Source: Oricola nitratireducens
Lineage (GTDB): Bacteria; Pseudomonadota; Alphaproteobacteria; Rhizobiales; Rhizobiaceae
Length of the DNA: 64,000 bases
Reading direction: 5' to 3'
Assembly: GCF_014904745.1 (NCBI RefSeq)
Contig: NZ_JACZCS010000051.1
Coordinates: 1-64,000 of the forward strand
The position numbers were made by a program, and so were the translations under genes. The notes beneath the pieces were generated by a model. That model did no database searches. It was given only the letters and a program-made list of their open reading frames with translations, and was not told the DNA's origin. This document shows, in pieces, positions 40,871 to 60,664 of this stretch. Every line of letters begins with the position of its first letter. Within the stretch, counting starts at the first letter, position 1.

Positions 40871-42415
40871 TCACCGCCCGGACTTGTTGATGTCCAGTGC
40901 GGACCATGTCTCCGCGATCGCCACGACCGCGGCGTTGATCGGTCCGCAGGGAATCTTGGGAATGATCGAGGCGTCGACGACATAGACGTTGTCGAGACCA
41001 TTCAGGCGCAGGTCGGGATCGACCACCGCGCGCTCGTCCTTGCCCATCCTGCACGTGCCGCAGGGATGGTGATGCGTCGAGGCGGCGTTCGCGATGAATG
41101 CGTCGATTTCCGCATCCGTCTGCGCATCCATGCCTGGAATCGCTTCGGCCTTGCGCCATTCTGCAAGCGCCTCGTGATGCCCGATCCGGCGCGCCATCCG
41201 GAAAGCCCTGCGGAAGGTCGTCCGGTCGTATTCGGTATCCAGGTATTTCGGGTCGATGATCGGATGGTCATGGCGTCCGGGGCCGCCAGGGCGGAGCGAG
41301 CCGCGGCTGGTCGGGTGCGTCACGCCGCAAAGGATGGTGAAGGCCGATCCAAAGGCCGGTGGTGTGAACTCGGCGCTGACGCTGGGCGCAACCACGCAAG
41401 CCAGAACGATGTCCGGGCTCCCTTCCGTTTCGGTGATGTCTGCGCTGTTCAGGTACATCAGCGACTCGGAATGCTGCAGCCTCGACGCGGGTACCGGTTG
41501 CCGCGCGGCGTAGACATTGCCCAATACAAGCAGATGGTCCTGCAGGTTGGAACCGATCTCGGGGTTCTCGATCTTGCAATTGATGTCGGCCTGCCGGAGC
41601 ACCTTGCGGTCGCCGATGCCTGATCGCATGAGCAGAAGCGGCGTGGCGATTGAGCCCGCGCTGAGGACGATCCTGTCGGCGGTCAGCGTCAGTTCCTCAC
41701 CGTCACGCAAGGCGACGACGCCGGTCGCCCTGGCGCCGTCCAGGACAAGGTTCTCGATCTCGCAGCCCGTGACGAGTGTCAGGTTGTTACGGGCGAGGAC
41801 TTCGTCCGTCAGGTAGGCGTCGGCAAGGCTCACGCGTTCGCCGTTGCGGATTGTCAGTGAATTGGGCGATGTGCCGAGGATCGGACCACTGTTGTGGTCG
41901 CTGAGTTGCGGAACACCGAGGGCGTTGCCGGCGGCAATATAGGCGCGGACGACAGGGCTGACTTCATCGTCCGGCAGATAGACATCGAGCGGGCCAGCGG
42001 AACCGCGTGTTTCCGACCGGAATGCGGAAAAGGATTCGCTGCGTATGAATCCCGGCAACAACCCGTCATATGACCAGCGGTCGCCACCGGCTTCCCGCCA
42101 GGCTTCGAAGTCGTCGCGGTGGCCGCGCACATGCGCCATGGCGTGCATGCAGCTCGAACCGCCGACGACGCGGCCGCGCGGCCAGTCATGAACGCGGTTC
42201 GCGGTATGGGGCTGCGGAACGGTGCTGTAGGCCCAGTCGAAGGCGCGACCGGGCAGGGAAGGCCATTTGCCCGGTTCACGGATATCCGGGTCGGATGGAA
42301 AATCACCGGCCTCGATCAGGCAGACGTCGCATCCGGCATCCTCACTTAGCCTTGCGGCGACAACCGATCCCGCCGTTCCCGCGCCAATGACAAGGACGTC
42401 GTAATGTTGCTTCAT
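40871..42415 (-). CDS. Pyridoxine 4-oxidase (GMC oxidoreductase)
   Basis: The product is 514 residues. The FAD-binding motif is VLVIGAGTAGSVVAARLSED, followed by the GMC signature GRVVGGSSCMHAMAHVRG and the catalytic region STHHHPCGTCRMG (His about 448-450). Long stretches resemble M. loti pyridoxine 4-oxidase as I remember it, for example SRLQHSES, THPTSRGS, DRTTFRRA and PNSL-I-NG-R-V. The enzyme oxidises pyridoxine to pyridoxal with oxygen, giving hydrogen peroxide. It follows the GntR gene on the same strand and is probably co-transcribed with it. This is the entry step for pyridoxine into the catabolic route encoded further right. Confidence 0.85.
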   Translation of the reverse strand: MKQHYDVLVIGAGTAGSVVAARLSEDAGCDVCLIEAGDFPSDPDIREPGKWPSLPGRAFDWAYSTVPQPHTANRVHDWPRGRVVGGSSCMHAMAHVRGHRDDFEAWREAGGDRWSYDGLLPGFIRSESFSAFRSETRGSAGPLDVYLPDDEVSPVVRAYIAAGNALGVPQLSDHNSGPILGTSPNSLTIRNGERVSLADAYLTDEVLARNNLTLVTGCEIENLVLDGARATGVVALRDGEELTLTADRIVLSAGSIATPLLLMRSGIGDRKVLRQADINCKIENPEIGSNLQDHLLVLGNVYAARQPVPASRLQHSESLMYLNSADITETEGSPDIVLACVVAPSVSAEFTPPAFGSAFTILCGVTHPTSRGSLRPGGPGRHDHPIIDPKYLDTEYDRTTFRRAFRMARRIGHHEALAEWRKAEAIPGMDAQTDAEIDAFIANAASTHHHPCGTCRMGKDERAVVDPDLRLNGLDNVYVVDASIIPKIPCGPINAAVVAIAETWSALDINKSGR

Positions 42416-42525: not shown

Positions 42526-43197
42526 CTATGCGGCGTAGGCGCTGGAGCGTTCGTTGATTTGTTGCTGTACGGATTGGAGGTGCGCGCGCATGGCGGCTTC
42601 TGCCGCTTCCGGATCGCGCTGGGCAATCGCTTCGGCAATCAGCAAGTGTTCCTGGTCGCGCTGGGCGATGCGTTTGGGGCAGGTCGTCGGCGTCAAGCGC
42701 GCGACCCGGACGCGCGAATCCACGCCCACCTGGCGCAGCATCTTGTAGAATTCGCCCGCGAGATGATTTCGGGCGGCGCTGACGATCGCCAGATGAAAAC
42801 TGAGGTCGACCGCGCCCGAGTTTGCGTTTTCCGGCGTTTTGGCCGCTTCCCTGATCTGTTTGATCTCCAGCGCCGAAGCGCGCAGAGATGCAAGGCGCGC
42901 AAGGCCGGGTTCAATCAGCATGCGCATCTCAAGGACTTCCAGCGGGTTGGTGATGCGAACCAGTTCCTCGCTGTAGCGGGGATGGGGCGCAGGCACCCGG
43001 CGCGGCTGGACCTGATGCAGGTCTCCGCTCTCGCGCAACACGGCTAGCGCCTTGCGCAGCTGGTGGCGCTTGACATTCAACCGGTCGGCCAGCACTCGCT
43101 CGGACGGGAGCTTTTCTCCCTCTTTCTGGAATTGTTTGACGGCCTCAATGATCCCGTCCACGTCATGCGACTGGTTTGCGTCACCTGTAACCGACAA
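42526..43197 (-). CDS. GntR/FCD-family regulator of the B6 cluster
   Basis: The product is 223 residues. The winged helix (KLPSERVLADRLNVKRHQLRKALAVLRESGDLHQVQPRR) precedes an FCD domain with EVLEMRMLIEPGLARLASLR and DLSFHLAIVSAARNHLAGEFY, and RDQEHLLIAEAIAQRDPEAAEAAMRAHL. The start appears to be TTG with GGGGAG upstream. It is divergent from the GMC dehydrogenase gene at 43420. The intergenic region and the promoter of the cupin operon share CAACC/GGTTG repeats, so it probably controls both units and the pyridoxine 4-oxidase gene. Confidence 0.82.
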   Translation of the reverse strand: MSVTGDANQSHDVDGIIEAVKQFQKEGEKLPSERVLADRLNVKRHQLRKALAVLRESGDLHQVQPRRVPAPHPRYSEELVRITNPLEVLEMRMLIEPGLARLASLRASALEIKQIREAAKTPENANSGAVDLSFHLAIVSAARNHLAGEFYKMLRQVGVDSRVRVARLTPTTCPKRIAQRDQEHLLIAEAIAQRDPEAAEAAMRAHLQSVQQQINERSSAYAA

Positions 43198-43419: not shown

Positions 43420-45048
43420 ATGACGGCGACCGAGGAATTTGACTATGTCATCGTTGGCGCCGGCTCTGCCGGGTGCGTGCTCGCGAATCGGTTGACGGAG
43501 GATCCGGCGGTATCGGTGCTGCTGCTCGAGGCCGGCGACTGGGATCGCGATCCGATGATCCATATTCCGCTTGGCTGGGGCAAGATCCTCACTGAACGCC
43601 GCCATGACTGGATGTATTTCTGCGAACCGGAGGCCAATGTCGGCGGCCGCAAGGTCGAGTGCGCCCGCGGCAAGGTCATAGGTGGGTGCTCGTCAACAAA
43701 CGCCATGGCCTATGTGCGCGGCGATCGCGCGGATTTCGACCGGTGGGCGCAAACCGGACTGACGGACTGGTCGTTCGAGAAGGTTCTCCCCTACTTCAAG
43801 AAGCAGGAAAGCTGGGAAGGCGGCGAGAGTGAATATCGCGGCGGAAACGGCCCGGTGCGCACCCAGGTCTGCCGCTACAAGGACGAACTGATCGATGCCT
43901 TCGCCGAGGCGAGCAGAACCGCCGGTTATCCGCAAACCGAGGACTACAACGGCGCTGAGCACGAAGGCTTCGGCCGGCTGCAGATGACGATCGCCAACGG
44001 ACGCCGCAACTCCACCGCCTCGGCCTATTTGCGGCCGGCCATGCGCCGGCCCAACCTCAAGGTTGCGACCAAGGCGATGGCGACCAGGATCAGGCTGGAG
44101 GGCGGACGCGCCACAGGGATCGATTACCAGCAGGGCGGTGTCGCGAAAACGGCCAGTGCGCGGCGCGAAGTGGTCCTGTCCGGTGGGGTCATCAACACGC
44201 CGCAGCTTCTCATGCTTTCAGGCATCGGGGATGGTCGCAAACTCGGCGAGTTGGGTATTCAAGCCGTTGTTTCTTCACCGAATGTCGGTGCGAACCTGCA
44301 GGATCACGTATCGGTGATCCTGATGTACCGGCGCAAGGAACCGGGGCCGTTCCTCAAGATGATGCGAGCCGATCGGATTGGCCTGGATTTCGCGAAAACG
44401 TACCTGACCGGGCGTGGTTTTTCGGCCGATGTGCCGGGGGGCGTGGTTGCATTCCTGAAGAGTGACGAGAGCCGTCCCGTGGCGGATGTGCAGCTGCTGT
44501 TCACTGCGGCGCCGCTGGCCGCCTGGCCCTATTTCCCACCTTTCAAGCAGCCGTTCACGGATGGTTTCGCCACCCGAATCGTTGCGGTTCAACCCGAAAG
44601 CCGGGGGTATGTCGGGCTCTCTTCTGCAGACCCGTTCGAGGCGCCGCGCATCCACCAGAACTTCCTGTCGTCCGAAAGGGACTGGCAGTCGCTTCGCTAC
44701 GGCCTGGGGGTGGCCCGCACGCTCGCCGCGCAACCGTCGATGCAACCATTCGTGGATGCCGAGTTTTTCCCGGGTCCCGATTGCCGGACGGACGAGGCGA
44801 TCGATGCCCATATCCGCGATACGTCGATTACGGTCCACCATCCCGCGGGGACATGCCGGATGGGGGTGGACAAGACATCCGTGGTCGATTCGGACCTGAT
44901 GCTGCGCGGTGTCGAGGGGCTGAGGGTGGTTGACGCTTCGGTGATGCCGGATCTGCCCAGCGGCAATATCAACGCCGCCGTGATCATGATCGCGGAGAAG
45001 GCGTCAGACTTGATCAGGGCCGCTGCCAGGCAAAAGGTTGCTGCCTGA
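43420..45048 (+). CDS. GMC oxidoreductase, candidate 4-pyridoxate dehydrogenase
   Basis: The product is 542 residues (about 59 kDa): FAD motif [22 protein letters not shown] signature [20 protein letters not shown], catalytic [12 protein letters not shown] and C-terminal [26 protein letters not shown]. It is choline-dehydrogenase-like. The size matches the FAD-dependent 4-pyridoxic acid dehydrogenase of M. loti, which oxidises the 5-hydroxymethyl group to give FHMPC. All neighbouring steps of that pathway are encoded nearby, so this is the natural assignment, but the family alone would allow other alcohols. Confidence 0.7.
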
Positions 45049-45063: not shown

Positions 45064-45088
45064 TTCAACCAAATTGCTATTGGTTGAA
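45064..45088. promoter_or_regulatory. 9-bp inverted repeat upstream of the cupin operon
   Basis: TTCAACCAA and TTGGTTGAA are perfect complements around seven bases. The repeat lies directly after the GMC dehydrogenase gene and about 255 bp before the cupin gene. Further CAACC copies follow near 45235 and 45280, with GGTT copies near 45296 and 45304, so this AT-rich 295-bp gap looks like a multi-site promoter. The core matches the 43290 cluster. Confidence 0.6.
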
Positions 45089-45343
45089 TCTTTTCGCGGC
45101 CATTCTTCGGATCGTTCCGGGTGACGGGACAAGTCCCGGATGCACAATAAATTCTCTTATAACTCTTTGTTATATAACAGAAAGATTTTAAAGCGCCATC
45201 GCGTGACGCCTTATGAGGCAGGTGGTTGTAGCCTCAACCAAAAAAACTTAACCGGATGCAAATTTCTGTATTGATGCACTCAACCAATCTGCTACGGTTA
45301 TCTTGGTTAAGAAAAATTCTCTCCGGTAGTGAAGGTGGTTGAT

Positions 45344-46495
45344 ATGTCTCATACGCAAACGGCGAACGACGCGATCAGCAATAAGAAGGCGGCGCTCAAG
45401 GGGCTTTATGACGACCTCTATTCCAAGAACATGTTCCCCTTCTGGGCGACGTCGGAAGGCGTGGAGCATGACGAGATCGCCCAGCTGATGGCGACCTCGA
45501 AGGCAATCCCGTTCGTCTGGAAATATTCCGACATCGAGCCTTTGCTGCAGCGCGCCGCTCAGCTGGTGACGATGGACGACAGCGAGCGCCGCTCCCTGAT
45601 TCTGGTCAATCCCGGTCTCGCGCCGAAGCGCGCATCGGTATCGACGATGTATACGGCTTACCGGTTGAACGATCCTGACGAGATCATGCCGCCGCACAAG
45701 CACTCGCCGAGCGCCATCCGGTTCGGCCTGACCGGCGAGGGCAACTTCACGGGCGTCGAGGGCGAGGACGTGACCTTCGGACCCGGCGACATGGTCCTGA
45801 CCCCCAACGATGCCTGGCACAATCATGGCACTGTCGGCGGCGAGCAAGCGGTGAACCTCTCGGTTCTCGACCTTCCGCTGGTGGAAACCCTGCATGCCGT
45901 GCATTTCGACCACAACTACACCGAGATCGAAGACGGCAAGGAAGTCGCCAGGAAGGTGCAGACCGCGCGTTATCCGACGGATTACTCGCAGCGGATCTAT
46001 GGCGCTGGCGGCATGATGCCTCGTTTCGTCGACCATAAGCGCGGCGGCGGCCTGTCCTCGCCCATGTATGTCTATCGCTGGGAAGTGATGGAGGCTGTCC
46101 TGGACGCCCACAAGGATTGGGACGGTGATCCGCATGAAGGCATTGTGGTGGATTATATCGATCCGACCACCGGCGGCCCGGTCTTCCAGACCATCAATTT
46201 CTATGTCCAGATGCTGCGTCCCGGCGAAAAGACCTTGCCGCAGCGGGAAACCGCGAGCCTCCTGCTCGCCCCGTTCCGCGGGAAGGGTCACTCGATCATC
46301 GACGGTGAGCGTTTTGACTGGGATCAGTTCGATACGATCGCCATCCCGGGCGGCTGCTGGGTCGAACATGTCAATGAATCGCCGACCGAACCGGTGATCT
46401 TCTTCGGTGCAACCGATGCGCCGACCCAGAAGCATCTTCACCTCTATAAGCGTTACGGCCGCAACCAGGCCGGCGATCTGCTGCGTCTCGCATGA
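45344..46495 (+). CDS. Bicupin of the gentisate/salicylate 1,2-dioxygenase family
   Basis: The product is 383 residues with two cupin domains. The first shows the iron site MPPHKHSPSAIRFGL with H118 and H120, and a third histidine H159 in PNDAWHNHG, positions nearly identical to those I remember for salicylate 1,2-dioxygenase (119/121/160). R126 and R83 match arginines that hold the carboxylate and hydroxyl of the aromatic acid in that family. The second cupin has the usual PGGCWVEHVN. These Fe(II) enzymes split the bond between the OH-bearing and COOH-bearing ring carbons. It heads an operon with RidA, GST-type and FHMPC-dehydrogenase-like genes, so a pyridine hydroxy-acid of B6 catabolism is a likely substrate. 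Confidence 0.82.
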   Translation: MSHTQTANDAISNKKAALKGLYDDLYSKNMFPFWATSEGVEHDEIAQLMATSKAIPFVWKYSDIEPLLQRAAQLVTMDDSERRSLILVNPGLAPKRASVSTMYTAYRLNDPDEIMPPHKHSPSAIRFGLTGEGNFTGVEGEDVTFGPGDMVLTPNDAWHNHGTVGGEQAVNLSVLDLPLVETLHAVHFDHNYTEIEDGKEVARKVQTARYPTDYSQRIYGAGGMMPRFVDHKRGGGLSSPMYVYRWEVMEAVLDAHKDWDGDPHEGIVVDYIDPTTGGPVFQTINFYVQMLRPGEKTLPQRETASLLLAPFRGKGHSIIDGERFDWDQFDTIAIPGGCWVEHVNESPTEPVIFFGATDAPTQKHLHLYKRYGRNQAGDLLRLA

Positions 46496-46506: not shown

Positions 46507-46536
46507 GTCACGCCCCGCGCTGCCGCGGGGCGTGAC
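46507..46536. terminator. 13-bp perfect stem-loop after the cupin gene
   Basis: GTCACGCCCCGCG pairs perfectly with CGCGGGGCGTGAC around a CTGC loop, 11 bases after the cupin stop. No long U-run follows (CCTTTGG), so it may be a partial terminator or protect the cupin message. It lies between genes of one apparent operon. It also covers a GTG at 46532 that would otherwise be the first possible start of the next gene. Confidence 0.6.
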
Positions 46537-46576: not shown

Positions 46577-47704
46577 TTGGTTTCAGCGTTAAACACAAAG
46601 CTTCTCGGCCACATTGATTGCCCCGGCGGCGGTCAGGTGTGGGTGGACGGAAACATCCTTTATATTGGCCACATGCGTCCGCCCAGCGGGACGACCCTGG
46701 TCGATATATCCGATCCACGGAATCCGAAGAAAATTACCACGATCGACGTCCCGCCGGGCTGGCACTCGCACAAGGTGCGGGTCAAGGACGGCCTGATGAT
46801 CATCAACCACGAGCGCTTCGGAAACGAGGGGCCGGCTGAATTCGGCGGTGGCCTCGCGATATACGATACCAGCAAGCCGGCCGAGCCGAAGCTGATCTCC
46901 AAATGGATCACCGGCGGCAAGGGCGTTCATCGATACGATTACGATGGCCGCTACGCCTATATCTCGCCGACCGCGGATGGCTACGTCGGCAATATCGTGA
47001 TGATCCTCGATCTGATCGATCCCGCCAATCCGGTGGAAGTCGGGCGCTGGTGGATCCCCGGTCAGTGGACCGGCGGCGGCGAGGAATATCCCTGGCACAA
47101 TTACGTCACGCCGCGTTGCCACCATCCGTTGCGCATGGGTGACCGGCTCTATGTCAGCTACTGGCATCATGGACTGTTCATTCTCGATATCTCGGACATG
47201 ACCAAGCCGCGCGCTATCGCGCACATGAATTCGAGTCCGTCCTTCCCGCATCCGACGCATACCTGCCTGCCGATCCCGCAGCCCTTGAAGGGGCGCAACA
47301 TCATGGTCGTCGCGGACGAGGACGTGGCCAAGCTCCATCCGTCGCCGCCGTCGTTCGCATGGATCTACGATATCACGGACGAGACAAATCCGCTGCCGAT
47401 CTCGACCTTCCAGGTGCCGGGGATCGATCCGGACGGCGCGCCTCAGCCGCCAATGACCGGTTGCCACCAGCCCTCCGAACGCTTCAAGGGGTCGATTATT
47501 CCGTTTGCATGGTTCGCCCAGGGCCTGCGTCTGGTCGATATCGCGGACCCCTTCGCGCCGAAGGAAGTGGGGCATTTCATGCCGGACGCGCCGGAGGGCG
47601 CGGAGCGTTCCTCGTCCAATGACGTGACCATCGACGATCGCGGAATCATCTATCTCATCGATCGGATTCGCGGCGTCGACATCATCGAGACATCGGTTTT
47701 CTAG
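46577..47704 (+). CDS. LVIVD-repeat (COG5276-like) beta-propeller protein
   Basis: The product is about 375 residues without a signal peptide. It consists of repeated units with LVDISDPRNPKKI, LAIYDTSKPAEPKLI, MILDLIDPANPVEVG, FILDISDMTKPRAI, YDITDETNPLPIS and LVDIADPFAPKEVG, the LVIVD-repeat pattern expected to form a propeller. Many conserved His/Trp residues (WHSHKV, WHNYVTPRCHHP, YWHHG) hint at a metal or ligand site. The start is uncertain: TTG at 46577 avoids the hairpin, whereas GTG at 46532 lies in it. No enzymatic role is established for the family; here it sits between the dioxygenase and RidA genes. Confidence 0.75.
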   Translation: MVSALNTKLLGHIDCPGGGQVWVDGNILYIGHMRPPSGTTLVDISDPRNPKKITTIDVPPGWHSHKVRVKDGLMIINHERFGNEGPAEFGGGLAIYDTSKPAEPKLISKWITGGKGVHRYDYDGRYAYISPTADGYVGNIVMILDLIDPANPVEVGRWWIPGQWTGGGEEYPWHNYVTPRCHHPLRMGDRLYVSYWHHGLFILDISDMTKPRAIAHMNSSPSFPHPTHTCLPIPQPLKGRNIMVVADEDVAKLHPSPPSFAWIYDITDETNPLPISTFQVPGIDPDGAPQPPMTGCHQPSERFKGSIIPFAWFAQGLRLVDIADPFAPKEVGHFMPDAPEGAERSSSNDVTIDDRGIIYLIDRIRGVDIIETSVF

Positions 47705-47713
47705 GAGACGCTT

Positions 47714-48121
47714 GTGTCAGACAAATCAAAGAAATCGGATACGCATTACGCGATCGGCAACAAGAATCCGAACCTGCCATTCCATCCAGCAGTCCGCGCC
47801 GGCGACTTCATTTTCGTCTCGGGCCAGGTGGCCAAGGACGAGAACAACAACATGATCTCCGGCACGATCGAGGAAGAGACACTCGCGACGCTCAAGACCA
47901 TCGAACGCGTGATCGCCCATGAAGGGGCAACGCTCTCGGATGTCGTGCGCATTACGACCTACCTCGAGGATACACGCGACTTCGGCCGCTATAACCGCGC
48001 ATTTCTCGAAGGCATTGGCGACGCGGTCCTGGCGCGTACCACGGTCGAGGCCAGGGCGGTTATCAGCACCAAAATCGAAATGGACGCCATCGTCTACAAG
48101 CCGCTCTCCAAGAAGAGCTGA
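47714..48121 (+). CDS. RidA-family imine/enamine hydrolase
   Basis: The product is 135 residues. The YjgF/RidA core is clear: HPAVRAGDFIFVSGQVAKDENN, TLATLKTIERVIAHEGATLSDVVRITTYLED and VLARTTVEARAVIST-K-IEMDAIVY. The arginine (R108) and glutamate (E122) needed to hydrolyse 2-iminoacids are in place. RidA converts 2-aminoacrylate/2-iminopropanoate to pyruvate and ammonia. The start is GTG with AGGAG upstream, 9 bp after the LVIVD gene. In a pathway that opens a pyridine ring, an imine-hydrolysing enzyme fits well. Confidence 0.88.
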   Translation: MSDKSKKSDTHYAIGNKNPNLPFHPAVRAGDFIFVSGQVAKDENNNMISGTIEEETLATLKTIERVIAHEGATLSDVVRITTYLEDTRDFGRYNRAFLEGIGDAVLARTTVEARAVISTKIEMDAIVYKPLSKKS

Positions 48122-48150: not shown

Positions 48151-48774
48151 ATGTACAAAATTCTAGGCCGCCAAACCTCCGGCAATGTCCAGAAAGTCCT
48201 CTTCATGCTCGAGGAAATGGGCACTGCCTACGAACGCGAAGACTATGGTCGCCAGTTCGAGAATACGCAGACCGCCGAATACAAGGCGATGAACCCGACG
48301 TCGAAGGTTCCGACCTTCATCGATGGTGATGTGGTGATCTGGGAATCCAACACCATCCTGCGCTACATCGCCAACGTCGCCGCACCGGAACTGACCGGCT
48401 CGACACCGGCCGAAAAGGCCGAAGTCGAGCGCTGGATGGATTTCCTGCTCGCCGCCGTCAATGCCGGCTATCTCGCCGCGTTCAAGGGCGCGAAGCTTCC
48501 GCCGGAAGAGCACACGGATGCCTACAAGGCTGAAGTCAAGGGGCTGGTCGATCAGCTCAAAATCATGGATGCACATCTGGCCGGCAAGGACTTCTTTGCG
48601 CTCGACAAGCTGACGATCGCCGATATCGCCTGCGCCCCGGTGATCAAGCGCTGCATCGGCTTCAAGATCGATCGTCCGGCCCTGCCGAACCTCGAACGCT
48701 GGGTCGCCGCAATGGAAGCGCGTCCGGCCTTCGAGCGCGCAACCGGTGCCAGCGCAGCCGCAAAGGTTGCCTGA
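48151..48774 (+). CDS. Glutathione S-transferase family protein
   Basis: The product is 207 residues: a thioredoxin-like half (MYKILGRQTSGNVQKVLFML, with the cis-Pro in SKVPTFIDGD and the gamma-glutamyl contact in IWESNTILRYIA) and a helical C-terminal half (DKLTIADIACAPVIKRCIGF). The active-site region TSGNVQKV suggests a Ser-type enzyme. In gentisate-type pathways GST-fold proteins act as maleylpyruvate isomerases, so a cis-trans isomerisation of the ring-opened product is possible. It overlaps the next gene by one base. Confidence 0.85.
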   Translation: MYKILGRQTSGNVQKVLFMLEEMGTAYEREDYGRQFENTQTAEYKAMNPTSKVPTFIDGDVVIWESNTILRYIANVAAPELTGSTPAEKAEVERWMDFLLAAVNAGYLAAFKGAKLPPEEHTDAYKAEVKGLVDQLKIMDAHLAGKDFFALDKLTIADIACAPVIKRCIGFKIDRPALPNLERWVAAMEARPAFERATGASAAAKVA

Positions 48775-49706
48775 TGACGATCCGGCGGGTAGCCCTCATC
48801 GGTCTCGGGACGATGGGTCCCGGCATTGCCGCGCGGTTGACGCGGGGCGGCCTGGATGTGGTTGCTTTTGATGTGTCGCAAGCGGCGATCGAGCGCGCAA
48901 ACGCGATGCTCGGTGTCGCGGCCGGCGTGCTCGACAGGTTGGAGATTGTCGCACCCGAGAGCGGCGAGGGGACCGTGAAAATGGCGGCCTCGATCGCCGA
49001 AGCGGTCGATGGCGCGGATCTCGTGATCGAGAACGTGCCCGAAAACGCCGAGATCAAGGCCGAGACCTATCGGGAGATCGAGAAGCATATCGGTTCCGAC
49101 GTGATCGTCGCCACCGACACTTCCGGCATACCGATCACCAAGCTGCAGGCAAATATCTCCAATCCCGGCCGCTTTGTCGGAATGCACTGGTCGAACCCGC
49201 CGCACATCATCCCGATGATCGAGGTAATCGCCGGCGAGCAGACCGCGCCGGAAACCGTCGCAACGATTCGCGACCTCATTCGCTCGCTGGGGCTTCTGCC
49301 GGTGGTCGTCAAGAAGGACGTGCCGGGCTTCGTCGAAAACCGCGTCCTTTACGCGCTGTTGCGCGAGGCTGTCGACCTGGTCGAGCGCGGCGTGATCGAG
49401 CCTGAGGATATCGATACCTGCGTTTCGTGGGGCATCGGCTACAAGATCGCGGTGGTCGGCCCGATGGCCCTGCTCGACATGGCAGGGCTCGATATCTACC
49501 GGTCCGTATCCTCCTTCCTCAACCAAGACCTCGCAAACCGCAACGACGTGGCTCCGATCGTCACGGAGAAGACGGAGGCCGGCAGGTTGGGCATCAAGTC
49601 GGGAGAGGGGATCTACAGCTACACGCCGGACAGGATCGCCGAACTCCAGGCGGACAGGGCCAGCAAGCTGATCGCTGTGCGCCGCATTCTGGAAGGCCGG
49701 AGCTGA
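48774..49706 (+). CDS. 3-hydroxyacyl-CoA dehydrogenase-family protein, probable FHMPC 5-dehydrogenase
   Basis: The product is 310 residues. The NAD motif is ALIGLGTMGPGIAARL; H138 in FVGMHWSNPPHIIPMIEV is the conserved catalytic histidine; the C-terminal domain has GFVENRVLYALLREAVDLVERGVIEPEDIDTCVSWGIGYK. The sequence resembles M. loti 5-formyl-3-hydroxy-2-methylpyridine-4-carboxylate 5-dehydrogenase as I remember it, an NAD-dependent member of this family. That enzyme makes the dicarboxylate HMPDC from the 4-pyridoxate dehydrogenase product. The MHWSNPP motif differs from fatty-acid-type enzymes (HFFNP), which supports a non-CoA substrate. Confidence 0.8.
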   Translation: MTIRRVALIGLGTMGPGIAARLTRGGLDVVAFDVSQAAIERANAMLGVAAGVLDRLEIVAPESGEGTVKMAASIAEAVDGADLVIENVPENAEIKAETYREIEKHIGSDVIVATDTSGIPITKLQANISNPGRFVGMHWSNPPHIIPMIEVIAGEQTAPETVATIRDLIRSLGLLPVVVKKDVPGFVENRVLYALLREAVDLVERGVIEPEDIDTCVSWGIGYKIAVVGPMALLDMAGLDIYRSVSSFLNQDLANRNDVAPIVTEKTEAGRLGIKSGEGIYSYTPDRIAELQADRASKLIAVRRILEGRS

Positions 49707-49710
49707 TTCA

Positions 49711-50271
49711 ATGGGCAAATCGGCGGCATACCGGGATATCAAGGCCGACGATGGCGGTTCCAAGGGGCCGCTGGGCCATCTCGGTTCCGCCGTCGAGTGG
49801 GTGCTGGGTCTGGTGTTGATCGGGGTTGTCCTTATCAACGTTGTCAACGCTACCGGCCGGTATCTCTTCTCGGCCTCGATGACGGGCGCCGACGAGCTCA
49901 TGGTGTTCATCATGATCTTCGTCGTCATGGTGGGCGCGGTTCTCGCGCTCGCCGGCCGCCGGCACATCTGCGTCAACCTGTTGCCGTCCTACGCGACGGG
50001 CCGCCGGCTCCATTTTCTGTATGTCGTCCATGACCTGATTGGGCTCGCGGCCACATCCTACGCCTTCCATGCGTCGTGGTTGTTCGTATCGAAGATCGCG
50101 CGACTTGGAACGAAGAGCATGACGCTCGGCATTCCGATGACGATCCCGCATTCCGCGCTCCTCATCGGTTTTGGTGCGATGGCCGTGATCTCGTTCGTGT
50201 GCCTGATCCGGGACCTGTTCCTTCTCGCCGGTGCGCCCGCCAGCGATGCCCGCCGGGGGGACAGCGCATGA
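49711..50271 (+). CDS. TRAP transporter small membrane subunit (DctQ type)
   Basis: The product is 186 residues with four membrane segments and the DctQ motif NVVNATGRYLFSASMTGADELMVFIMIFVVMVGAVLALAGRRHICVNLL. It overlaps the large-subunit gene by 4 bp. TRAP transporters use a sodium or proton gradient and a binding protein to take up carboxylates, so the substrate may be 4-pyridoxate or a related acid. Confidence 0.87.
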   Translation: MGKSAAYRDIKADDGGSKGPLGHLGSAVEWVLGLVLIGVVLINVVNATGRYLFSASMTGADELMVFIMIFVVMVGAVLALAGRRHICVNLLPSYATGRRLHFLYVVHDLIGLAATSYAFHASWLFVSKIARLGTKSMTLGIPMTIPHSALLIGFGAMAVISFVCLIRDLFLLAGAPASDARRGDSA

Positions 50272-51539
50272 TCTTCACGCTCGCTGTCATACCCGTCGTA
50301 TTCCTCGCGCTCGGTACGCCGGTCTTTCTCGTCTTTCTATCAGGCGCGGTTCTGACGCTCTTCTTCGTTCTGCCGACCCCACCGGTGGTCTTGCACCAAG
50401 TTATTTTCGGCGGACTCGACAATTACGCGTTGCTCGCGGTCCCGTTTTTCGTCTTCGCCGGCGAACTGATGGCGGCAAGCGGTATCGCCTCACGCCTGAT
50501 CGTCTTCGTGCTCGCGCTGACCGGTCGGCTGCCCGGAAGTCTTGGTGTCGCAACCGTGGGCGCATCGGCAGCCATCGGTGCGATCTCGGGCTCCAGCGCC
50601 GCAGCGGTCGCGGCCCTCGGGAAGACGCTTTATCCCAAACTCGTCGGCGCCGGATACGGAACCGAGCGATCAGCGGGCCTACTCGCATCGGCCGGCGCGA
50701 TCGACATCGTCATTCCGCCGAGTATCGCGATGATCCTTTACGGTCTTGCGGCCGAACAATCGATCCCGCGTCTGTTCGTGGCGGGAGTTCTTCCCGGCCT
50801 GTTGATCGCGCTGCTGATGGCGACCTTCATCGTGGCCGTCGCTGTGGTCAAGAAACTGCCAATTTCCGGATCCTTCGATCCACGCGAGATCTGGAGCGCG
50901 ACCAAGGGTGCGGTCTGGGCGATCCTGATGCCGGTCGTGATCCTCGGCGGTATCTACAATGGCTGGTTCTCGCCGACTGAAGCCGGTGGCTTTGCCTGCC
51001 TCTACGCAATGATCGTCGCGCGCTTCATCTACCGCTCGATGACCTGGGCGGAGATCATCCGCAGTGCCGCCAACTCGGCGATGCTATCGGCGCAGATCAT
51101 GATCATCGTCGCCGCCGCTGGCGTACTGACCTGGTTGTTGACCACCCAGGGCGTGCCGCAGGCAATCGTGGCGGGCATGGAGGCGATGAACATGAGCCTC
51201 GTGACCTTCCTGCTCGCGGTCAACCTCGTGCTGCTGGTCGTCGGCTGCTTCCTCGATCCGACCTCGGCGATCCTTGTGTTGGCGCCGCTGCTGGTTCCGA
51301 TCGCGGTTTCGGTGGGTGTCGATCCGATCCACTTCGGCATCATCATGACGGTCAATCTTGCGATCGGGATGTTCACGCCGCCTTTCGGCCTCAACCTCTT
51401 CGTCGCGCAGACCGTGACCAACCTGCCGGTTCATTCGCTTTATCGCGGCGTTCTGCCGTTCGTCGCGGTGCAGATCATCGCGCTCGTCATCATCACCTAT
51501 GTCCCGCAGCTATCCCTGATGCTCGGTGCTTCACTTTGA
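50268..51539 (+). CDS. TRAP transporter large membrane subunit (DctM type)
   Basis: The product is 423 residues with about twelve membrane segments. Typical motifs are LAVPFFVFAGELMAASGIASRLI, GASAAIGAISGSSAAAVAALGKTLYPKLVGAGY, IPPSIAMILYGLAAEQSI, FSPTEAGGFACLYAMIV and MTVNLAIGMFTPPFGLNLFVAQ. The ATG overlaps the DctQ-type gene. Confidence 0.9.
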   Translation: MIFTLAVIPVVFLALGTPVFLVFLSGAVLTLFFVLPTPPVVLHQVIFGGLDNYALLAVPFFVFAGELMAASGIASRLIVFVLALTGRLPGSLGVATVGASAAIGAISGSSAAAVAALGKTLYPKLVGAGYGTERSAGLLASAGAIDIVIPPSIAMILYGLAAEQSIPRLFVAGVLPGLLIALLMATFIVAVAVVKKLPISGSFDPREIWSATKGAVWAILMPVVILGGIYNGWFSPTEAGGFACLYAMIVARFIYRSMTWAEIIRSAANSAMLSAQIMIIVAAAGVLTWLLTTQGVPQAIVAGMEAMNMSLVTFLLAVNLVLLVVGCFLDPTSAILVLAPLLVPIAVSVGVDPIHFGIIMTVNLAIGMFTPPFGLNLFVAQTVTNLPVHSLYRGVLPFVAVQIIALVIITYVPQLSLMLGASL

Positions 51540-51556
51540 CCCGAAGGAGAACACGC

Positions 51557-52573
51557 ATGATCAAGTCATTCATTCGCGCCGCGGCCGTCGGCACGTCCAT
51601 GGCGTTGCTGTTGATGAGCGCATCGGTGACAACCACCCAGGCGTCCACGATGAAGCTCGCTTCGGCAACCATCAACGATGTTCAGCATGAGTGGCAGAAA
51701 GTGTTCGCCGAGGAACTCAAGCAGCGCATCGGCGACAAGGTCACGACCGAAATCTATCCGGCGAGCCAGCTGGGCCCGATCCCCCGTATGGCGGAAGGCG
51801 TATTGCTTGGCACGATCGAGGCATTCACCACACCGACATCGTTCATGACGAACGTCGATCCGCGATTCCAGGCATTCGATGTCCCGGGTCTCTTCAAGAC
51901 GCCGCAGGATGTCGACGCCGCAATCCATGATCCGGAATATCGCAACCACATGGAGACGATGTTCCTCGACAAGGGCCTGCGTGTGATCGGTGCGATCTAC
52001 AACAGCCCGACCGTGGTCTTCACCATGAAGCCGGTGACCAAGCTGGACGAGATGAAGGGGTTGAAAATCCGCACCTTCGCGTCCCCGATGCAGGTCAAGC
52101 CGATGGAGCTTCTCGGTGTTACGCCGCTGCCGCTCGCACTGACCGAAGTCGTTCCGGCGCTGGAGAATGGCGGTCTCGACGGCCTGCTCGTCGGGATGCC
52201 GATCCTTACCGCGTTCAAGTATTACGATATCGGCAAGAACATCACCGATCTTCGTTTCGCCGAGATCGTTTCGGTGACCGTCGTCAACGAAGACTGGTTT
52301 CAGCAGCAGCCGGAAGATGTCCGCCAAGCGATCATCGACGCCGGCCGAGCTGCTGAAACCGCGGTCTTTCCGTGGGGCATCAAGAACGTCGAGCGCACTT
52401 ACAAGATCTGGACGGACAATGGCGGTGTCGTGAACCACCTGTCGGATGAAGACCAGTCCAAGATGGAAGCCGAGTTCGCCGATCTCGCCACCAAGCTGGT
52501 GGATGCCGATCCGGCGGTGAAGGCGGAATACGACCAGATGAAGGCGCTGGTCGACGCAAAGGCTGCGAAGTAA
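51557..52573 (+). CDS. TRAP transporter binding protein (DctP type)
   Basis: The product is 338 residues: a signal peptide (about 1-31, ending TTQA) and a DctP domain (MKLASATINDVQHEWQKVFAEELKQRIGDKVTTEIYPASQLGPIPRMAEGVLLGTIEAFTTP). The carboxylate-binding arginine is in GLKIRTFASPMQVKPMELLG. AAGGAG precedes the ATG at 51557. It completes the TRAP system and sets its specificity for an organic acid. Confidence 0.9.
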   Translation: MIKSFIRAAAVGTSMALLLMSASVTTTQASTMKLASATINDVQHEWQKVFAEELKQRIGDKVTTEIYPASQLGPIPRMAEGVLLGTIEAFTTPTSFMTNVDPRFQAFDVPGLFKTPQDVDAAIHDPEYRNHMETMFLDKGLRVIGAIYNSPTVVFTMKPVTKLDEMKGLKIRTFASPMQVKPMELLGVTPLPLALTEVVPALENGGLDGLLVGMPILTAFKYYDIGKNITDLRFAEIVSVTVVNEDWFQQQPEDVRQAIIDAGRAAETAVFPWGIKNVERTYKIWTDNGGVVNHLSDEDQSKMEAEFADLATKLVDADPAVKAEYDQMKALVDAKAAK

Positions 52574-52586
52574 GCGCGATGGCCCG

Positions 52587-53033
52587 CTATTCGCAGACCG
52601 TTCGCCCCGCATCTGCCGAACACCGCACGGTGTTCGCGGAATGCTCGGCTGCCAGCCGGCGGTCGAGCGGCAGGCGCGCGCGGGTGGCGTATGCGCGGCC
52701 GTCGATTCCGCACCAGAGCGCCTCAACCGGCATGTTCTCTCGCTTGTCGTTGAGCAGCGTGTACGTGCCGGTCTTCGGGTCGAACCACAGGTCGATCCGT
52801 GCCGTAGCGTCCGGAGCCACAGTTGCGATTTCGGTCGAGTACCAGTGCGCGAGGTTTGCTTTGCAGGCCAGCTGTACCGAGCCCGAATTTGCGACCACCA
52901 ACGGTGTGTTGACGAGTCCTTCGGTTCCCTTGCGCACCGAAACCGGTCTGAGCTCGACCGCTTCCGAGGGAACAGTGCAGGTGAGAAAGGCTGCAGTTTG
53001 AACAACCAATGCGAGCTTCAACATAATGCCCAT
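52587..53033 (-). CDS. Secreted protein of unknown function
   Basis: The product is 148 residues (or three fewer if the second ATG is used): a signal peptide (about 1-26) and a mature part with four cysteines and a WFDPKTGTYTLLNDKRENMPVEALWCGIDGRAYATRARLPL segment. I do not recognise the family. It points against its neighbours, ending 14 bp from the TRAP binding-protein gene, and its upstream region is shared with the BMP-transporter operon. It may be unrelated to B6 use. Confidence 0.65.
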   Translation of the reverse strand: MGIMLKLALVVQTAAFLTCTVPSEAVELRPVSVRKGTEGLVNTPLVVANSGSVQLACKANLAHWYSTEIATVAPDATARIDLWFDPKTGTYTLLNDKRENMPVEALWCGIDGRAYATRARLPLDRRLAAEHSANTVRCSADAGRTVCE

Positions 53034-53090: not shown

Positions 53091-53115
53091 AACAACAGCC
53101 AACTTGGAGGTACAG

Positions 53116-54144
53116 ATGAAAAATTACATAATCTCTACTGCGAGCGCCATAATATTATCTGGCGTTATGCTTAGCGGAGCTTTTGCTGCGGAAGTCAAAT
53201 CGATAGCCATTCTTACGCCGGAAGAAGGTACTGACTACGGCTGGAACCAGCAAGGTGTCGATGGGGCCAAGGCCGCGGCCAAGGCAGCAGGCATCGAGGC
53301 GATCGTTGCCCAGGGGCTCGGCTACGGCGATGTCCGTCCGACCCTGCGTGAATTGGCCGAAGGGGGCGCTAGCCTGATGATCGCCCATGCCAGCGGCTAC
53401 AATACGGCAGCGCCGGAAATCGCCGAGGAAACCGGAGTGCCGGTCGCCATCGTCGATAACCCCTCCGCAATGAAGAAGGGTCTCGTCGCCGATTACACCC
53501 TGTCCGGCCATGAAGGCGCCTATCTTGCCGGCCGCATGGCAGCCATGATGAGCCGCACCAAGGCTGTTGGCATCGTCGTTTCCGGTGAGCCGCCGTCCTG
53601 GAATTCGCAGTCGGCTGCATTCGCTCAGGGCGTCAAGGCGGAAAATCCGGACGTCAAGGTGATCTATGCCGTGATCGGGCCCGCAGCATACAGCGACGCC
53701 GCAGGCGGCAAGCGCGTGACCGAGAGCGTAATCGCTGCCGGTGCCGACATCATCTTTGGCCAGGGCAACGGCTCCAGCTTCGGGATGCTGCAGGCGGTGG
53801 AAACCACCAAGGCGACCGACGGCGGCAAGGTCTACTTCATCGATGTGATCGGCGACAAGTCACCCATCGACAAGGGTTATCTCCTGTCGTCGGTGATCTG
53901 GAACATCGAGCCGGTCTACGCGGCCATGATCGAAGACCTGAAGAACGACACCTTCGGCACCAAGAGCTACTCGATCGGCCTCGCGGACGACTCGCTCAAG
54001 CTGCTCAAGACGCCGCAGATTCCCGACGATGTCTGGGCGAAGGTGCAGACCCTTCGCGAAGACGTCATCTCCGGCGCGATCAAGGTCGAGCCGATTTTTG
54101 AAGCCACGCAGGTACGTGCCCTGATGAGCGACGTCAAGGAATGA
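53116..54144 (+). CDS. BMP/PnrA-family ABC substrate-binding protein
   Basis: The product is 342 residues: a signal peptide (ending AFA-A near residue 25) and a BMP-family domain (SIAILTPEEGTDYGWNQQGVDGAKAAAKAAGIEAIVAQGLGYGDVRPTLRELAEGGASLMIAHASGYN). BMP proteins bind nucleosides and other heterocycles such as riboflavin or B6-like rings. GGAGG precedes the ATG. The operon ends with three B6-degradation genes, so pyridoxine or pyridoxamine is the likely ligand. Confidence 0.87.
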   Translation: MKNYIISTASAIILSGVMLSGAFAAEVKSIAILTPEEGTDYGWNQQGVDGAKAAAKAAGIEAIVAQGLGYGDVRPTLRELAEGGASLMIAHASGYNTAAPEIAEETGVPVAIVDNPSAMKKGLVADYTLSGHEGAYLAGRMAAMMSRTKAVGIVVSGEPPSWNSQSAAFAQGVKAENPDVKVIYAVIGPAAYSDAAGGKRVTESVIAAGADIIFGQGNGSSFGMLQAVETTKATDGGKVYFIDVIGDKSPIDKGYLLSSVIWNIEPVYAAMIEDLKNDTFGTKSYSIGLADDSLKLLKTPQIPDDVWAKVQTLREDVISGAIKVEPIFEATQVRALMSDVKE

Positions 54145-54152
54145 GCCAAAAA

Positions 54153-54180
54153 CGGGGAGGGGCGTTGCCGCTCCTCCCCG
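54153..54180. terminator. Stem-loop after the binding-protein gene
   Basis: CGGGGAGG pairs with CCTCCCCG around a 12-base interior that itself can pair (GGC/GCC). It lies 8 bases after the stop codon. Such hairpins between a binding-protein gene and its ATPase gene usually keep the binding protein message more abundant than the rest. Confidence 0.55.
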
Positions 54181-54212
54181 CCTCATGAAGCAAACAAATA
54201 CAGATTCTGGAA

Positions 54213-55787
54213 ATGCGCGTGCTATCCGAACGATCAGTCAGTCCCGGCGACAAGCCCATCATAACGCTCGAGGGCGTGACCAAGCGGTTTCCCGGCGTTG
54301 TCGCCAATGATGCCGTCAATCTTGAAATCCGGCCTAGCGAAGTCCACGTCCTTTTGGGCGAGAACGGTGCGGGAAAATCAACTCTCATCGGCATGCTCTC
54401 AGGGCTGCAGCAGCCGGACGAAGGGCGCATCCTGATCGACGGCGAGGTGCGTGCGATCACATCGCCGCGCAACGCGCTCGCACTCGGTATCGGCACGGTG
54501 TTCCAGCATACCATGCTGGTGCCGACGCTGACGGTCGCCGAAAACCTTCTGCTTGGCGCGCCCTGGTGGCAGCGGCCCCGGAAGGAAAGCCTGCGCACCG
54601 AGGTTGAGGCGCTCTCAAAATCCCTCGGCATGCAGGTCGATCTCGACGCGGTCGCATCCGATCTGTCGCTCGGTGAGCAGCAATTCGTCGAGATCATGCG
54701 CGCGCTTCTGCGCAACAGTCGTATGGTCATTCTGGACGAGTCGACATCGATGCTGACACCGTCCGGTATTGAGGAACTCGGCGCGCTGATGCGCCGTCTG
54801 GTCGAGCGTGGCCTCGCCATCGTCTTCATCACCCACAAGCTGCGCGAGGCGGCAGCATTCGGTGACCGGATCTCGGTCCTCAAGCTCGGCCGCAAGGTGG
54901 GGGAAATCACGCCGGAACGCTTCCAGGCGCTGCATGAGGACGATCTCGTCACGGAGATCGTGGACATGATGTTCGGCAAGCGCAGCGATGACCCGGAAAA
55001 CGGCAAACGCGCCGGCACAACCATCGCCGAAGACGCGAAGACCGTTCTTGCCGTCGATGGGGTGAACCTTCCCGCGACCCAGACGTCTCCGGGCCTGCAC
55101 AATATTTCCTTCGATGTTCGCGAAGGCGAATTGCTGGGGATCGCCGGTATCGACGGCAACGGCCAGAAGCAACTGGCCGAAGTCCTGGCCGGTCAGATCA
55201 GCGGCGCAAGCGGTAAGATTGTCCTCGACGGACGCAACGTGGAATCGCTTTCCGTGGGCGGACGGCGCGATGCCGGTTTGCGTTATCTGACGGACGACCG
55301 GCTTGGTGAAGGTACGGTAGGGACGTTCCCGGTCTCAATGAACTTTTTGCTGAAGGAAGTCGGCAAGCCGCCGCTCTGGAACAAGGGTTTCGAAAAGACC
55401 TCCGACATTGAAAAGCATGCCGAGCGGCTGATTGCAGAATACGACGTGCGCACGCCGCGCGGCCATACGCCGGTCGGCCGCCTGTCCGGCGGCAATATCC
55501 AGAAGGTCGTGCTGGCCCGCGAACTTGCCGAGGGTGCGCGGCTCGTCATCTTCAACAAGCCGACATATGGCCTCGATCTCGCCAACACGCTCGCGATCCG
55601 TCAGCGCATCCTCGACATCGCGGCCGAAGGGAAAGGCGTTCTTCTGATCTCGACCGATCTGGAGGAACTCCTCGGGCTCTGCGACCGGATCGCGGTCATG
55701 GCGGAGGGGAAACTGGTTGGCATGGTCAACAATGGTGAAAACGCCCGGACGGAAATTGGCCGGCTGATGATTGGTCTGGAAGAATGA
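54213..55787 (+). CDS. Two-domain ABC ATPase of a BMP-type importer
   Basis: The product is 524 residues with two ATPase halves. Half 1: Walker A GENGAGKST, signature LSLGEQQ, Walker B MVILDESTSML. Half 2: degenerate Walker A region GIAGIDGNGQKQLAEVLAG, signature LSGGNIQK, Walker B LVIFNKPTYGLD. The second half has Asn instead of Glu/Gln before KPT, normal for sugar/nucleoside-type ATPases. It overlaps the first permease gene by 4 bp. Confidence 0.88.
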   Translation: MRVLSERSVSPGDKPIITLEGVTKRFPGVVANDAVNLEIRPSEVHVLLGENGAGKSTLIGMLSGLQQPDEGRILIDGEVRAITSPRNALALGIGTVFQHTMLVPTLTVAENLLLGAPWWQRPRKESLRTEVEALSKSLGMQVDLDAVASDLSLGEQQFVEIMRALLRNSRMVILDESTSMLTPSGIEELGALMRRLVERGLAIVFITHKLREAAAFGDRISVLKLGRKVGEITPERFQALHEDDLVTEIVDMMFGKRSDDPENGKRAGTTIAEDAKTVLAVDGVNLPATQTSPGLHNISFDVREGELLGIAGIDGNGQKQLAEVLAGQISGASGKIVLDGRNVESLSVGGRRDAGLRYLTDDRLGEGTVGTFPVSMNFLLKEVGKPPLWNKGFEKTSDIEKHAERLIAEYDVRTPRGHTPVGRLSGGNIQKVVLARELAEGARLVIFNKPTYGLDLANTLAIRQRILDIAAEGKGVLLISTDLEELLGLCDRIAVMAEGKLVGMVNNGENARTEIGRLMIGLEE

Positions 55788-56881: not shown

Positions 56882-56885
56882 GACG

Positions 56886-57821
56886 ATGAGCGACCTGTTT
56901 ACGAATGTTTTCCTGAGTGCGCTTCTCTTCGGCGCCGTGACGGCCGCGGTCCCGCTGCTTCTGGCAGGCCTCGGCGAGCAGATGTCGGAAAAGTCCGGTG
57001 TGCTGAATATCGGCATCGAGGGGATGATGCTCATGGGCGCCTATACCGGTTTCCTCGGCGCTTATCTGACGAACTCGCTGTGGTTCGGCTTCCTGACCGG
57101 GGCGGTCGGCGGGTTGCTGGTGTCCTGCATCATGGTGATCTTGTGCGTCCGGCACGGGCTCAACCAAATCGTCATCGGCATCGGCCTGACGCTGGGCTGT
57201 GAAGGTTTGACGGCGCTGTTACACCATTTCCAGTTCTCGCGGACCTATCCGCGTCTGCCAGCGGCGGATCCGACCGTGATCCCTATTCTTTCCGACATTC
57301 CGGTGATCGGCCCCGCCTTCTTCAAGCAACATCTGCTCGTCTATATCGCCGTGCTGCTGGTCTTCGTGGCCACCTTCATCTATCGCCGCACGCAGCTGGG
57401 CTTGAACCTTCAGGCGGCCGGCGACAAGCCCGCGGCGCTTGATGTCTCCGGTGTCGACGTATTCCGCACGCGCGCTTTCGCGGTGCTTGCAACCGGAACG
57501 CTCGCAGGCCTCGGCGGCGCCTATATGGCCAATATCGGCGCCGGCATCTTCGTGCCCTTTATAACCAATGGGGCAGGGTTTCTGGGCATCGTGCTCGCCA
57601 TGCTGGCGCGGGGACGCCCGGTCTGGGTACTGATCGGTGCAATGGTCTTCGGCATCTGTCTGTCGCTGACGACCGCGCTGCAGGTCGCCGGCATCAACAT
57701 CCCCACCGACCTCATCCAAATGATCCCGTTCCTTGCCGTGATGGCGATGCTGATCATGTTCGGTCGGCGCTCGACGCTGCCGGCCGCGCTCGGAATTCCC
57801 TATGAGCGGGGCGCGCGCTGA
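56886..57821 (+). CDS. BMP-type ABC importer permease 2
   Basis: The product is 311 residues with about eight membrane segments: VPLLLAGLGEQMSEKSGVLNIGIEGMMLMGAYTGFL, GLNLQAAGDKPAALDVSGVDVFRTRAFAVLATG, LGGAYMANIGAGIFVPFITNGAGFLGIVLAMLARGRP. It starts 4 bp after permease 1. Confidence 0.88.
   Translation: MSDLFTNVFLSALLFGAVTAAVPLLLAGLGEQMSEKSGVLNIGIEGMMLMGAYTGFLGAYLTNSLWFGFLTGAVGGLLVSCIMVILCVRHGLNQIVIGIGLTLGCEGLTALLHHFQFSRTYPRLPAADPTVIPILSDIPVIGPAFFKQHLLVYIAVLLVFVATFIYRRTQLGLNLQAAGDKPAALDVSGVDVFRTRAFAVLATGTLAGLGGAYMANIGAGIFVPFITNGAGFLGIVLAMLARGRPVWVLIGAMVFGICLSLTTALQVAGINIPTDLIQMIPFLAVMAMLIMFGRRSTLPAALGIPYERGAR

Positions 57822-57874: not shown

Positions 57875-58684
<810 letters not shown>

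Positions 58685-58709: not shown

Positions 58710-60664
<1,955 letters not shown>

Follow-up and report, generated by a model that had tools for sequence, protein, structure and literature searches.

The window analysed here, which is the whole stretch of 64,000 nucleotides from Oricola nitratireducens, contains a cluster of genes for the breakdown of vitamin B6 arranged around the gene of a bicupin protein. Details of the features are presented in Table 1. FHMPC is 5-formyl-3-hydroxy-2-methylpyridine-4-carboxylate, and its oxidation gives HMPDC (3-hydroxy-2-methylpyridine-4,5-dicarboxylate). The trio known from pathway I of Mesorhizobium loti, namely pyridoxine 4-oxidase, 4-pyridoxolactonase and FHMPC dehydrogenase, is entirely present in the window.

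Table 1. Features of the vitamin B6 cluster in the window, with the evidence for their names
Feature	Position	Strand	Basis
Pyridoxine 4-oxidase	40871-42415	-	PDB 4ha6, 584 bits; next 278 bits
GntR/FCD-family regulator	42526-43197	-	
GMC oxidoreductase, likely 4-pyridoxate dehydrogenase	43420-45048	+	Family and position; no specific model
Bicupin, proposed Fe(II)-dependent HMPDC 3,4-dioxygenase (ring opener)	45344-46495	+	Family, fold, residues, tree
LVIVD-repeat beta-propeller; metal-dependent hydrolysis of a ring-opened product is proposed	46577-47704	+	
RidA-family enamine/imine deaminase-like protein	47714-48121	+	
Glutathione S-transferase (GST)-like protein, proposed isomerase (role uncertain)	48151-48774	+	
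FHMPC 5-dehydrogenase, makes HMPDC	48774-49706	+	NF042925, 557 bits (cut-off 500); PDB 4om8, 507 bits
TRAP transporter DctQ/DctM/DctP	49711-52573	+	
Putative B6 ABC importer	53104-57821	+	Binding protein 53104-54144, ATPase 54213-55787, two conserved ORFs
4-Pyridoxolactonase	57878-58684	+	NF047925, 502 > 325
Short-chain dehydrogenase, perhaps pyridoxal 4-dehydrogenase	59942-60664	+	Pfam adh_short/adh_short_C2

Some of these names are less firm than others. The pyridoxine 4-oxidase scores the same 584 bits against 3t37, a 'probable dehydrogenase'. The GMC oxidoreductase, likely 4-pyridoxate dehydrogenase with the specific name resting on position, is 73-78% identical to the GMC protein found near the FHMPC dehydrogenase in 46 loci of the textbook type and 65% identical over a partial match in locus L085. 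The B6 ABC proteins are supported by their family models (NF047927, 509 > 400; NF047930, 837 > 670), and the two ORFs at 55784-57821 are possibly the permeases of the importer, a presumption based on conservation only. The short-chain dehydrogenase match covers residues 274-510 of the ORF 59123-60664, and its role as pyridoxal 4-dehydrogenase is a possibility inferred from context. The genes for the bicupin, the LVIVD protein, RidA, the GST and FHMPC dehydrogenase follow each other on one strand with gaps of -1 to 81 bases, where the 81-base gap assumes a start of the LVIVD gene at 46577. The LVIVD ORF opens at a GTG at 46532 and homology begins at about the TTG at 46577, which is likely to be the true start.

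Several further features of the DNA were observed around these genes. The sequence AACCAA/TTGGTT occurs five times within 242 bases (45067-45308) upstream of the bicupin, partly as inverted repeats, and 26 times in the 64 kb window; these repeats are possibly operator-like, perhaps for the GntR/FCD regulator. Scans for sigma-70 promoters (4 versus 3.0 in shuffles) and for terminators (7 versus 9.4) gave counts at about the shuffle level. A strong, G+C-rich hairpin of 13 pairs without a T run is located at 46507-46536, in the gap between the bicupin and LVIVD genes, and the GTG at 46532 lies inside it. This gap measures 60-209 bases and folds (-18 to -141 kcal/mol, no shuffle control) with differing sequence in 13 of 16 loci, and measures 1-11 bases with no fold in L108, L123 and L124. 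In two loci (L108:10292-13135 and L109:8340-11374) RidA and GST are separated by a TRAP transporter pair, assigned to the TAXI type by eye from its sequence. A long antisense ORF (45248-46441, minus strand) overlaps the bicupin gene, and the ORF at 52579-53001 (140 aa) has no Pfam match at 1e-5; its counterparts in many loci, of either cluster type described below, are 37-62% identical.

The bicupin ORF translates into 383 amino acids without an internal stop. Its PDB relatives by phmmer include the gentisate 1,2-dioxygenases (GDOs) 3bu7 (E 1.4e-52) and 2d40 (E 1.2e-45) and salicylate 1,2-dioxygenase (SDO) 2phd (E 7e-35), and the family match is therefore far beyond chance. The AF2 model predicted from 38 sequences has a mean pLDDT of 89.4 and a pTM of 0.88, and GDO and SDO are also the top PDB folds found with this model by Foldseek (3bu7, E 2.4e-35; 2phd, E 2.5e-32; 2d40, TM 0.92 by target length), so the bicupin fold expected of class III (cupin) ring-cleaving dioxygenases is met. 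By sequence and fold the protein thereby belongs to the gentisate/salicylate 1,2-dioxygenase family. The score against TIGR02272, the model of gentisate 1,2-dioxygenase proper, is 211.9 bits and lies far below the curated cut-off of 442.1, as do those of three further bicupins of the same clade (211.5-218.9 bits). Of the homologs used for comparison, L099 exceeds this cut-off with 561 bits, and others, at 211-374 bits, also fail. The score against NF049978 (5-aminosalicylate 1,2-dioxygenase MabB) is 202.5 bits, with a cut-off of 650. These scores place the bicupin within the superfamily but outside both named groups. In a tree of 35 rows against 21 other homologs the B6 bicupins form one clade with a support of 100/100 and a long stem; members of the clade are at least 58% identical to the bicupin of the window and the other homologs 27-42%.

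The active site was read by alignment with L138, the second bicupin in the genome of Pseudaminobacter salicylatoxidans DSM 6986 (locus L021). L138 was identified as SDO because 78 of 79 residues agree with those of a PDB 4fag fragment; P. salicylatoxidans carries both an SDO and a B6 bicupin, and L138 is 29% identical to the bicupin. The SDO iron ligands H119, H121 and H160 correspond to H118, H120 and H159, and every one of the 35 clade members and 21 other homologs has this triad (20 duplicates having been merged to reach these numbers). Arg83, Arg127 and His162 of SDO correspond to R82, R126 and H161, and the positions of Ala125 and Leu176 are kept as well. The substrate carboxylate in SDO is bonded by Arg83, Gln108, Arg127 and His162 (PMC10306065). 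The preliminary description, which had claimed a dioxygenase of the salicylate/gentisate type with the triad H118/H120/H159, held in both respects (by phmmer, fold and residues for the former and by the alignment for the latter). Its two catalytic arginines held in part: R126 was right, and R83 was off by one, since R83 aligns with Arg84 of SDO, a neighbouring arginine that is also conserved. The operon claimed with the HMPDC-making enzyme is consistent with the five-gene layout on one strand, an inference from gene layout alone with no co-transcription data.

The specificity shell of the bicupin is altered as compared to SDO. Gln108 is replaced by R107, Trp172 by N171 and Asp174 by S173, and further changes are Gly106 to A105 and Leu38 to Phe. 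R107 is present in all 34 clade rows that have this column (one row, presumably the truncated L037, is gapped, hence 34 and not 35), and N171 and S173 are present in 35 of 35. Among the 21 other homologs the same three columns hold Q in 16 and S in 5, W in 20 and F in 1, and D in 20 and N in 1, respectively. Gln108, Trp172 and Asp174 are described as conserved among all GDOs (PMC11264262), and the bicupin does not meet this trio. In SDO, Asp174 together with Trp104 binds the 5-OH of gentisate (PMC10306065). In HMPDC the place of the gentisate 5-OH is unsubstituted, and a second carboxylate lies beside the first. Therefore, the site seems to suit a second carboxylate rather than gentisate, and it is possible that R107 holds the 5-carboxylate of HMPDC, as inferred from the residue change without any binding data.

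The LVIVD protein is conserved at least as strongly as the bicupin (69-93% identity to that of the window in 20 relatives). Its invariant histidines include H47, H78, H80, H93, H133, H197, H198, H213, H240, H243 and H312. The closest PDB propeller is the haloalkylphosphorus hydrolase 5hrm (sequence E 1.3e-8; Foldseek E 2.2e-17), and a relationship to phosphotriesterases was considered on the basis of this best match and rejected. WD40 propellers tie with it in Z and the HMMER alignment is limited to short repeat stretches, and therefore no reaction of the LVIVD protein can be deduced. That it is a metal-dependent hydrolase of the ring-opened acid is a guess with as much against it as for it. 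The RidA protein carries the motif ARTTVEA, which aligns with the AR of 2dyy; its arginine, conserved in the 35-row alignment, is the one we take to be the active-site residue Arg105 of the E. coli protein. PDB relatives of RidA include the 2-aminomuconate deaminase 6izh (E 9.8e-12), an enzyme that, judged by its name, acts on a ring-opened enamine. The GST scores 47.0 bits against TIGR01262 (maleylpyruvate/maleylacetoacetate isomerase, maiA) and does not meet the cut-off of 171. An isomerase role is again a guess, with odds that we rate below those of the hydrolase role of the LVIVD protein.

We compared the surroundings of FHMPC dehydrogenase in 80 loci, namely those whose FHMPC dehydrogenase ranked highest among 429 relatives in similarity to that of the window, and searched all of them by tblastn for both gene sets, a locus with the bicupin being called type A and one with the textbook genes type B. 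The textbook block of L055 (M. jarvisii) contains AAMS hydrolase (3kxp, 579 bits), MHPC oxygenase (3alj, 858 bits) and a class II aldolase-like gene which, by family and place, we take to be HMPDC decarboxylase; as a query it is named by family and position and not by a solved structure. All five block genes (the three textbook genes and two further ones) and none of bicupin, LVIVD, RidA and GST are present in 46 of the 80 loci, and L058, whose contig begins within the block, has four of the five. Decarboxylase and MHPC oxygenase without the bicupin are thus found in 47 of the 80 loci, 46 of them also having the last hydrolase, and the decarboxylase is at least 72% identical in the type-B loci. 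The bicupin, LVIVD, RidA and GST genes together, with no block gene, are present in 30 loci and likewise in L037, whose contig starts in the bicupin, giving 31. The two sets occur together in none of the 80 loci. Two loci remain unclear. L084 has the GST only, its contig starting there; GMC, bicupin, LVIVD and RidA lie on a different contig of G224, which seems to be the same genome, judging from identical coordinates of FHMPC dehydrogenase. In L072 the GST and FHMPC dehydrogenase are present, RidA is cut at its residue 75 beside unrelated genes (L072:4163-4336), and no bicupin was found on the contig, which has unrelated genes upstream; this is possibly a rearrangement or a chimeric metagenome contig.

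The two further block genes (L055:6348-7466) lie between MHPC oxygenase and decarboxylase and are kept in 47 of 47 textbook-type loci. One codes for 209 aa with no NCBIfam match at 1e-15, and the other for a YbhB/YbcL-like protein of 152 aa.

Whole genomes were searched for textbook genes lying elsewhere, namely the genome of the window and those of 33 loci (33 bicupin-type genomes and that of the unclear locus L072; G039 duplicates the genome of L051 and is not counted extra). No ortholog of MHPC oxygenase was found in any of the 34. The hits are flavoproteins related at family level only, all genomes but G046 giving matches at E 8.6e-25 or weaker; G046, a bicupin-type genome, has a full-length relative at 38% (E 3.9e-59). 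The best match in the genome of the window has E 4.6e-11 (34% over 151 residues), and the control was recovered at 100% with E 1.4e-263. AAMS hydrolase was absent from 34 of 34 genomes at 1e-25 and HMPDC decarboxylase from 32 of 34 at 1e-15, with both controls found; the other two genomes, both bicupin-type, carry a decarboxylase relative at 38% and 40%. In the converse search of 47 type-B genomes, bicupin homologs at 1e-20 appeared in nine, all 32-38% identical and none an ortholog.

Genomes drawn independently gave the same picture. Among 397 genomes drawn evenly from the order, with only the first 4-5 candidates of the first pass scored per genome, FHMPC dehydrogenase is present in 12 (59-100%), the bicupin in 7 (72-100%) and MHPC oxygenase in 5 (86-98%). 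The seven and the five do not overlap and together make up the 12 with FHMPC dehydrogenase; otherwise these thresholds return only oxygenase relatives at 41-42%, in G398 and, as an additional copy, in G352 and G369. A draw of 385 genomes from the class added five bicupins of other orders at 59-64%, followed by homologs at 42% and below. FHMPC dehydrogenase and LVIVD adjoin the bicupin in all five, and RidA, GST, the B6 ABC genes and the lactonase are kept in four. In the remaining genome, G786, RidA has no match at 1e-10 and the GST one of only 37%. The scheme therefore does not depend on RidA and GST in every genome, and its core appears to be the bicupin, FHMPC dehydrogenase and LVIVD. None of these B6 neighbours was found as an ortholog in the surroundings of the 42% and 37% homologs L128 and L129.

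Gene content, mutual exclusion, clade, residues and fold are shown directly. From the gene content we infer that the bicupin module is likely to replace three textbook enzymes in many related bacteria. The loci share ancestry, and the combinatorial figures of 2.7e-12 and 1/792 ignore this kinship. In a tree of FHMPC dehydrogenase (88 rows, quick method) the A and B clusters are separated by one change (SH-aLRT 85), and the exclusion may therefore record a single replacement and not 80 independent events. Midpoint rooting nests the textbook type within the bicupin type. The rooting is weak, and it is merely possible that the bicupin route predates the textbook route, the latter being a later replacement.

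Taken together, we consider it likely, with a probability of roughly 0.78, that the bicupin catalyses ring opening in a third route by which bacteria degrade vitamin B6; substrate, cleavage site, product and activity are inferred from the chemistry of the family. In the proposed scheme, the known enzymes would convert pyridoxine oxidatively to 4-pyridoxate, FHMPC and HMPDC. In gentisate-type enzymes the hydroxyl and the carboxylate are bound to iron and cleavage takes place between the two carbons bearing them (PMC10306065). By analogy, Fe(II) on H118/H120/H159 would bind HMPDC via its 3-OH and 4-carboxylate, with R82, R126 and H161 acting as in SDO and R107 holding the extra 5-carboxylate, and O2 would be inserted between C3 and C4 to give HOOC-C(CH3)=N-CH=C(COOH)-CO-COOH. 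Such a product would be a pyruvate imine joined to an enamine, which would offer a reason for a RidA protein in the operon. Hydrolysis of the imine/enamine and cleavage of the acid that is left may then be the work of RidA, GST and LVIVD, with pyruvate, NH3, formate and oxaloacetate as plausible end products. If hydrolysis is complete, pyruvate and ammonia would be released together with formyl-oxaloacetate, which would yield formate and oxaloacetate. The balance is correct (C8H7NO5 + O2 + 3 H2O = C3H4O3 + NH3 + CH2O2 + C4H4O5). The scheme is weakest in what it assigns to GST and LVIVD and in its end products.

The proposal of the preliminary description that the bicupin takes over from decarboxylation and the flavin oxygenase together is thus well supported by gene content (80 loci, 397 genomes and 34 whole genomes) and residues, and its direct C3-C4 cleavage in an iron-dependent branch is strongly supported as an inference, activity and exact substrate being inferred. 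It had named two outcomes that would refute it. The presence of the known decarboxylase and flavin oxygenase genes was not met in the genome of the window by whole-genome search, and activity on gentisate only is made unlikely, judging from the residues, by the loss of the Asp174 that binds the gentisate 5-OH. It had overlooked the replacement of the last textbook hydrolase and the place of LVIVD, RidA and GST in the module.

Three rival explanations remain to be considered. The one that survives best, though we consider it unlikely, is that the bicupin acts on FHMPC or 4-pyridoxate and so opens the ring one or two steps sooner, with FHMPC dehydrogenase serving another branch or a ring-opened aldehyde. 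Both 4-pyridoxate and FHMPC share the ortho pair of 3-OH and 4-COOH. However, FHMPC dehydrogenase accompanies the bicupins found without it as bait in 7 of 7 genomes and is adjacent in 5 of 5 in other orders, and R107 in 34 of 34 clade rows is suggestive of a further carboxylate. A second rival, which seems very unlikely, is that a non-homologous enzyme decarboxylates HMPDC and the bicupin acts elsewhere in the module, for instance in oxidising the ring-opened product. An unknown decarboxylase remains possible even where the known one is missing, and two type-A genomes have the relative at 38-40%. However, MHPC (3-hydroxy-2-methylpyridine-5-carboxylate) has no carboxylate next to its hydroxyl, and the genes scanned in the conserved module include no other oxygenase. 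Equally improbable is an ordinary gentisate or salicylate dioxygenase lying by chance in a B6 cluster; GDO and SDO are indeed the best named relatives, but we reject this on scores (212 bits against 442 for TIGR02272, 202 against 650 for MabB), residues (Asp174, Trp172 and Gln108 replaced throughout the clade) and co-occurrence (presence tracks FHMPC dehydrogenase), and P. salicylatoxidans carries, in addition to the B6 bicupin, a separate SDO that is 29% identical. The whole-genome searches for textbook genes outside the cluster found no ortholog.

Ring opening of HMPDC by the bicupin therefore remains our preferred reading, and a bolder version of it can be put forward, to which we incline by a small margin only. 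It holds that this is a third, undescribed route in which a gentisate-type Fe(II) cupin opens HMPDC between C3 and C4 without decarboxylation or NAD(P)H, RidA and the histidine-rich LVIVD protein lead on to pyruvate, NH3, formate and oxaloacetate, and the route is spread over several orders of Alphaproteobacteria (as judged by names of relatives) and is maybe older than the textbook route. Two routes of B6 breakdown are described in PMC3538738 and that of M. loti and Pseudomonas in PMC6253932, and neither route is known to use a cupin; no report of a cupin in B6 breakdown was found in the open-licence literature searched, which does not show its absence from print. If true, genes automatically annotated as gentisate dioxygenase or cupin would have to be read anew in the light of a third ring-opening step, present in many genomes of Mesorhizobium and its relatives as well as in other orders. 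A gentisate-type dioxygenase would then act on a pyridine ring, and a highly conserved propeller and a RidA protein of unknown substrate would gain a functional context. The flavin oxygenase of the textbook route uses NAD(P)H; by the proposed balance none would be needed, and the carbon lost as CO2 in the textbook route would be saved.

SDO of P. salicylatoxidans (2phd, 3njz, 3nl1) and the GDOs (3bu7, 2d40) have the bicupin fold, the three-histidine iron site and the catalytic residues in common with the bicupin, whereas SDO differs in its 29% identity and in Gln108, Trp172, Asp174, Gly106 and Leu38, all changed in the bicupin. NicX, an Fe(II) 2,5-dihydroxypyridine dioxygenase (PMC7910607), likewise opens a pyridine ring in an Fe(II)-dependent manner; it belongs to a different enzyme family. 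5hrm is the propeller closest to LVIVD, yet the identity is 19-23% and shared metal ligands are not shown. The gentisate/maleylpyruvate route consists of a dioxygenase, a GST-type isomerase and a fumarylpyruvate hydrolase. The B6 operon resembles it in having a gentisate-type dioxygenase and then a GST in one cluster, with a propeller and RidA where that route has fumarylpyruvate hydrolase, which fits a nitrogen-containing product. Pathway I of M. loti and Pseudomonas MA-1 shares pyridoxine 4-oxidase, 4-pyridoxolactonase, FHMPC dehydrogenase, a GMC gene resembling 4-pyridoxate dehydrogenase and the B6 ABC genes with the window; it has HMPDC decarboxylase, MHPC oxygenase and AAMS hydrolase where the window type has bicupin, LVIVD, RidA and GST instead.
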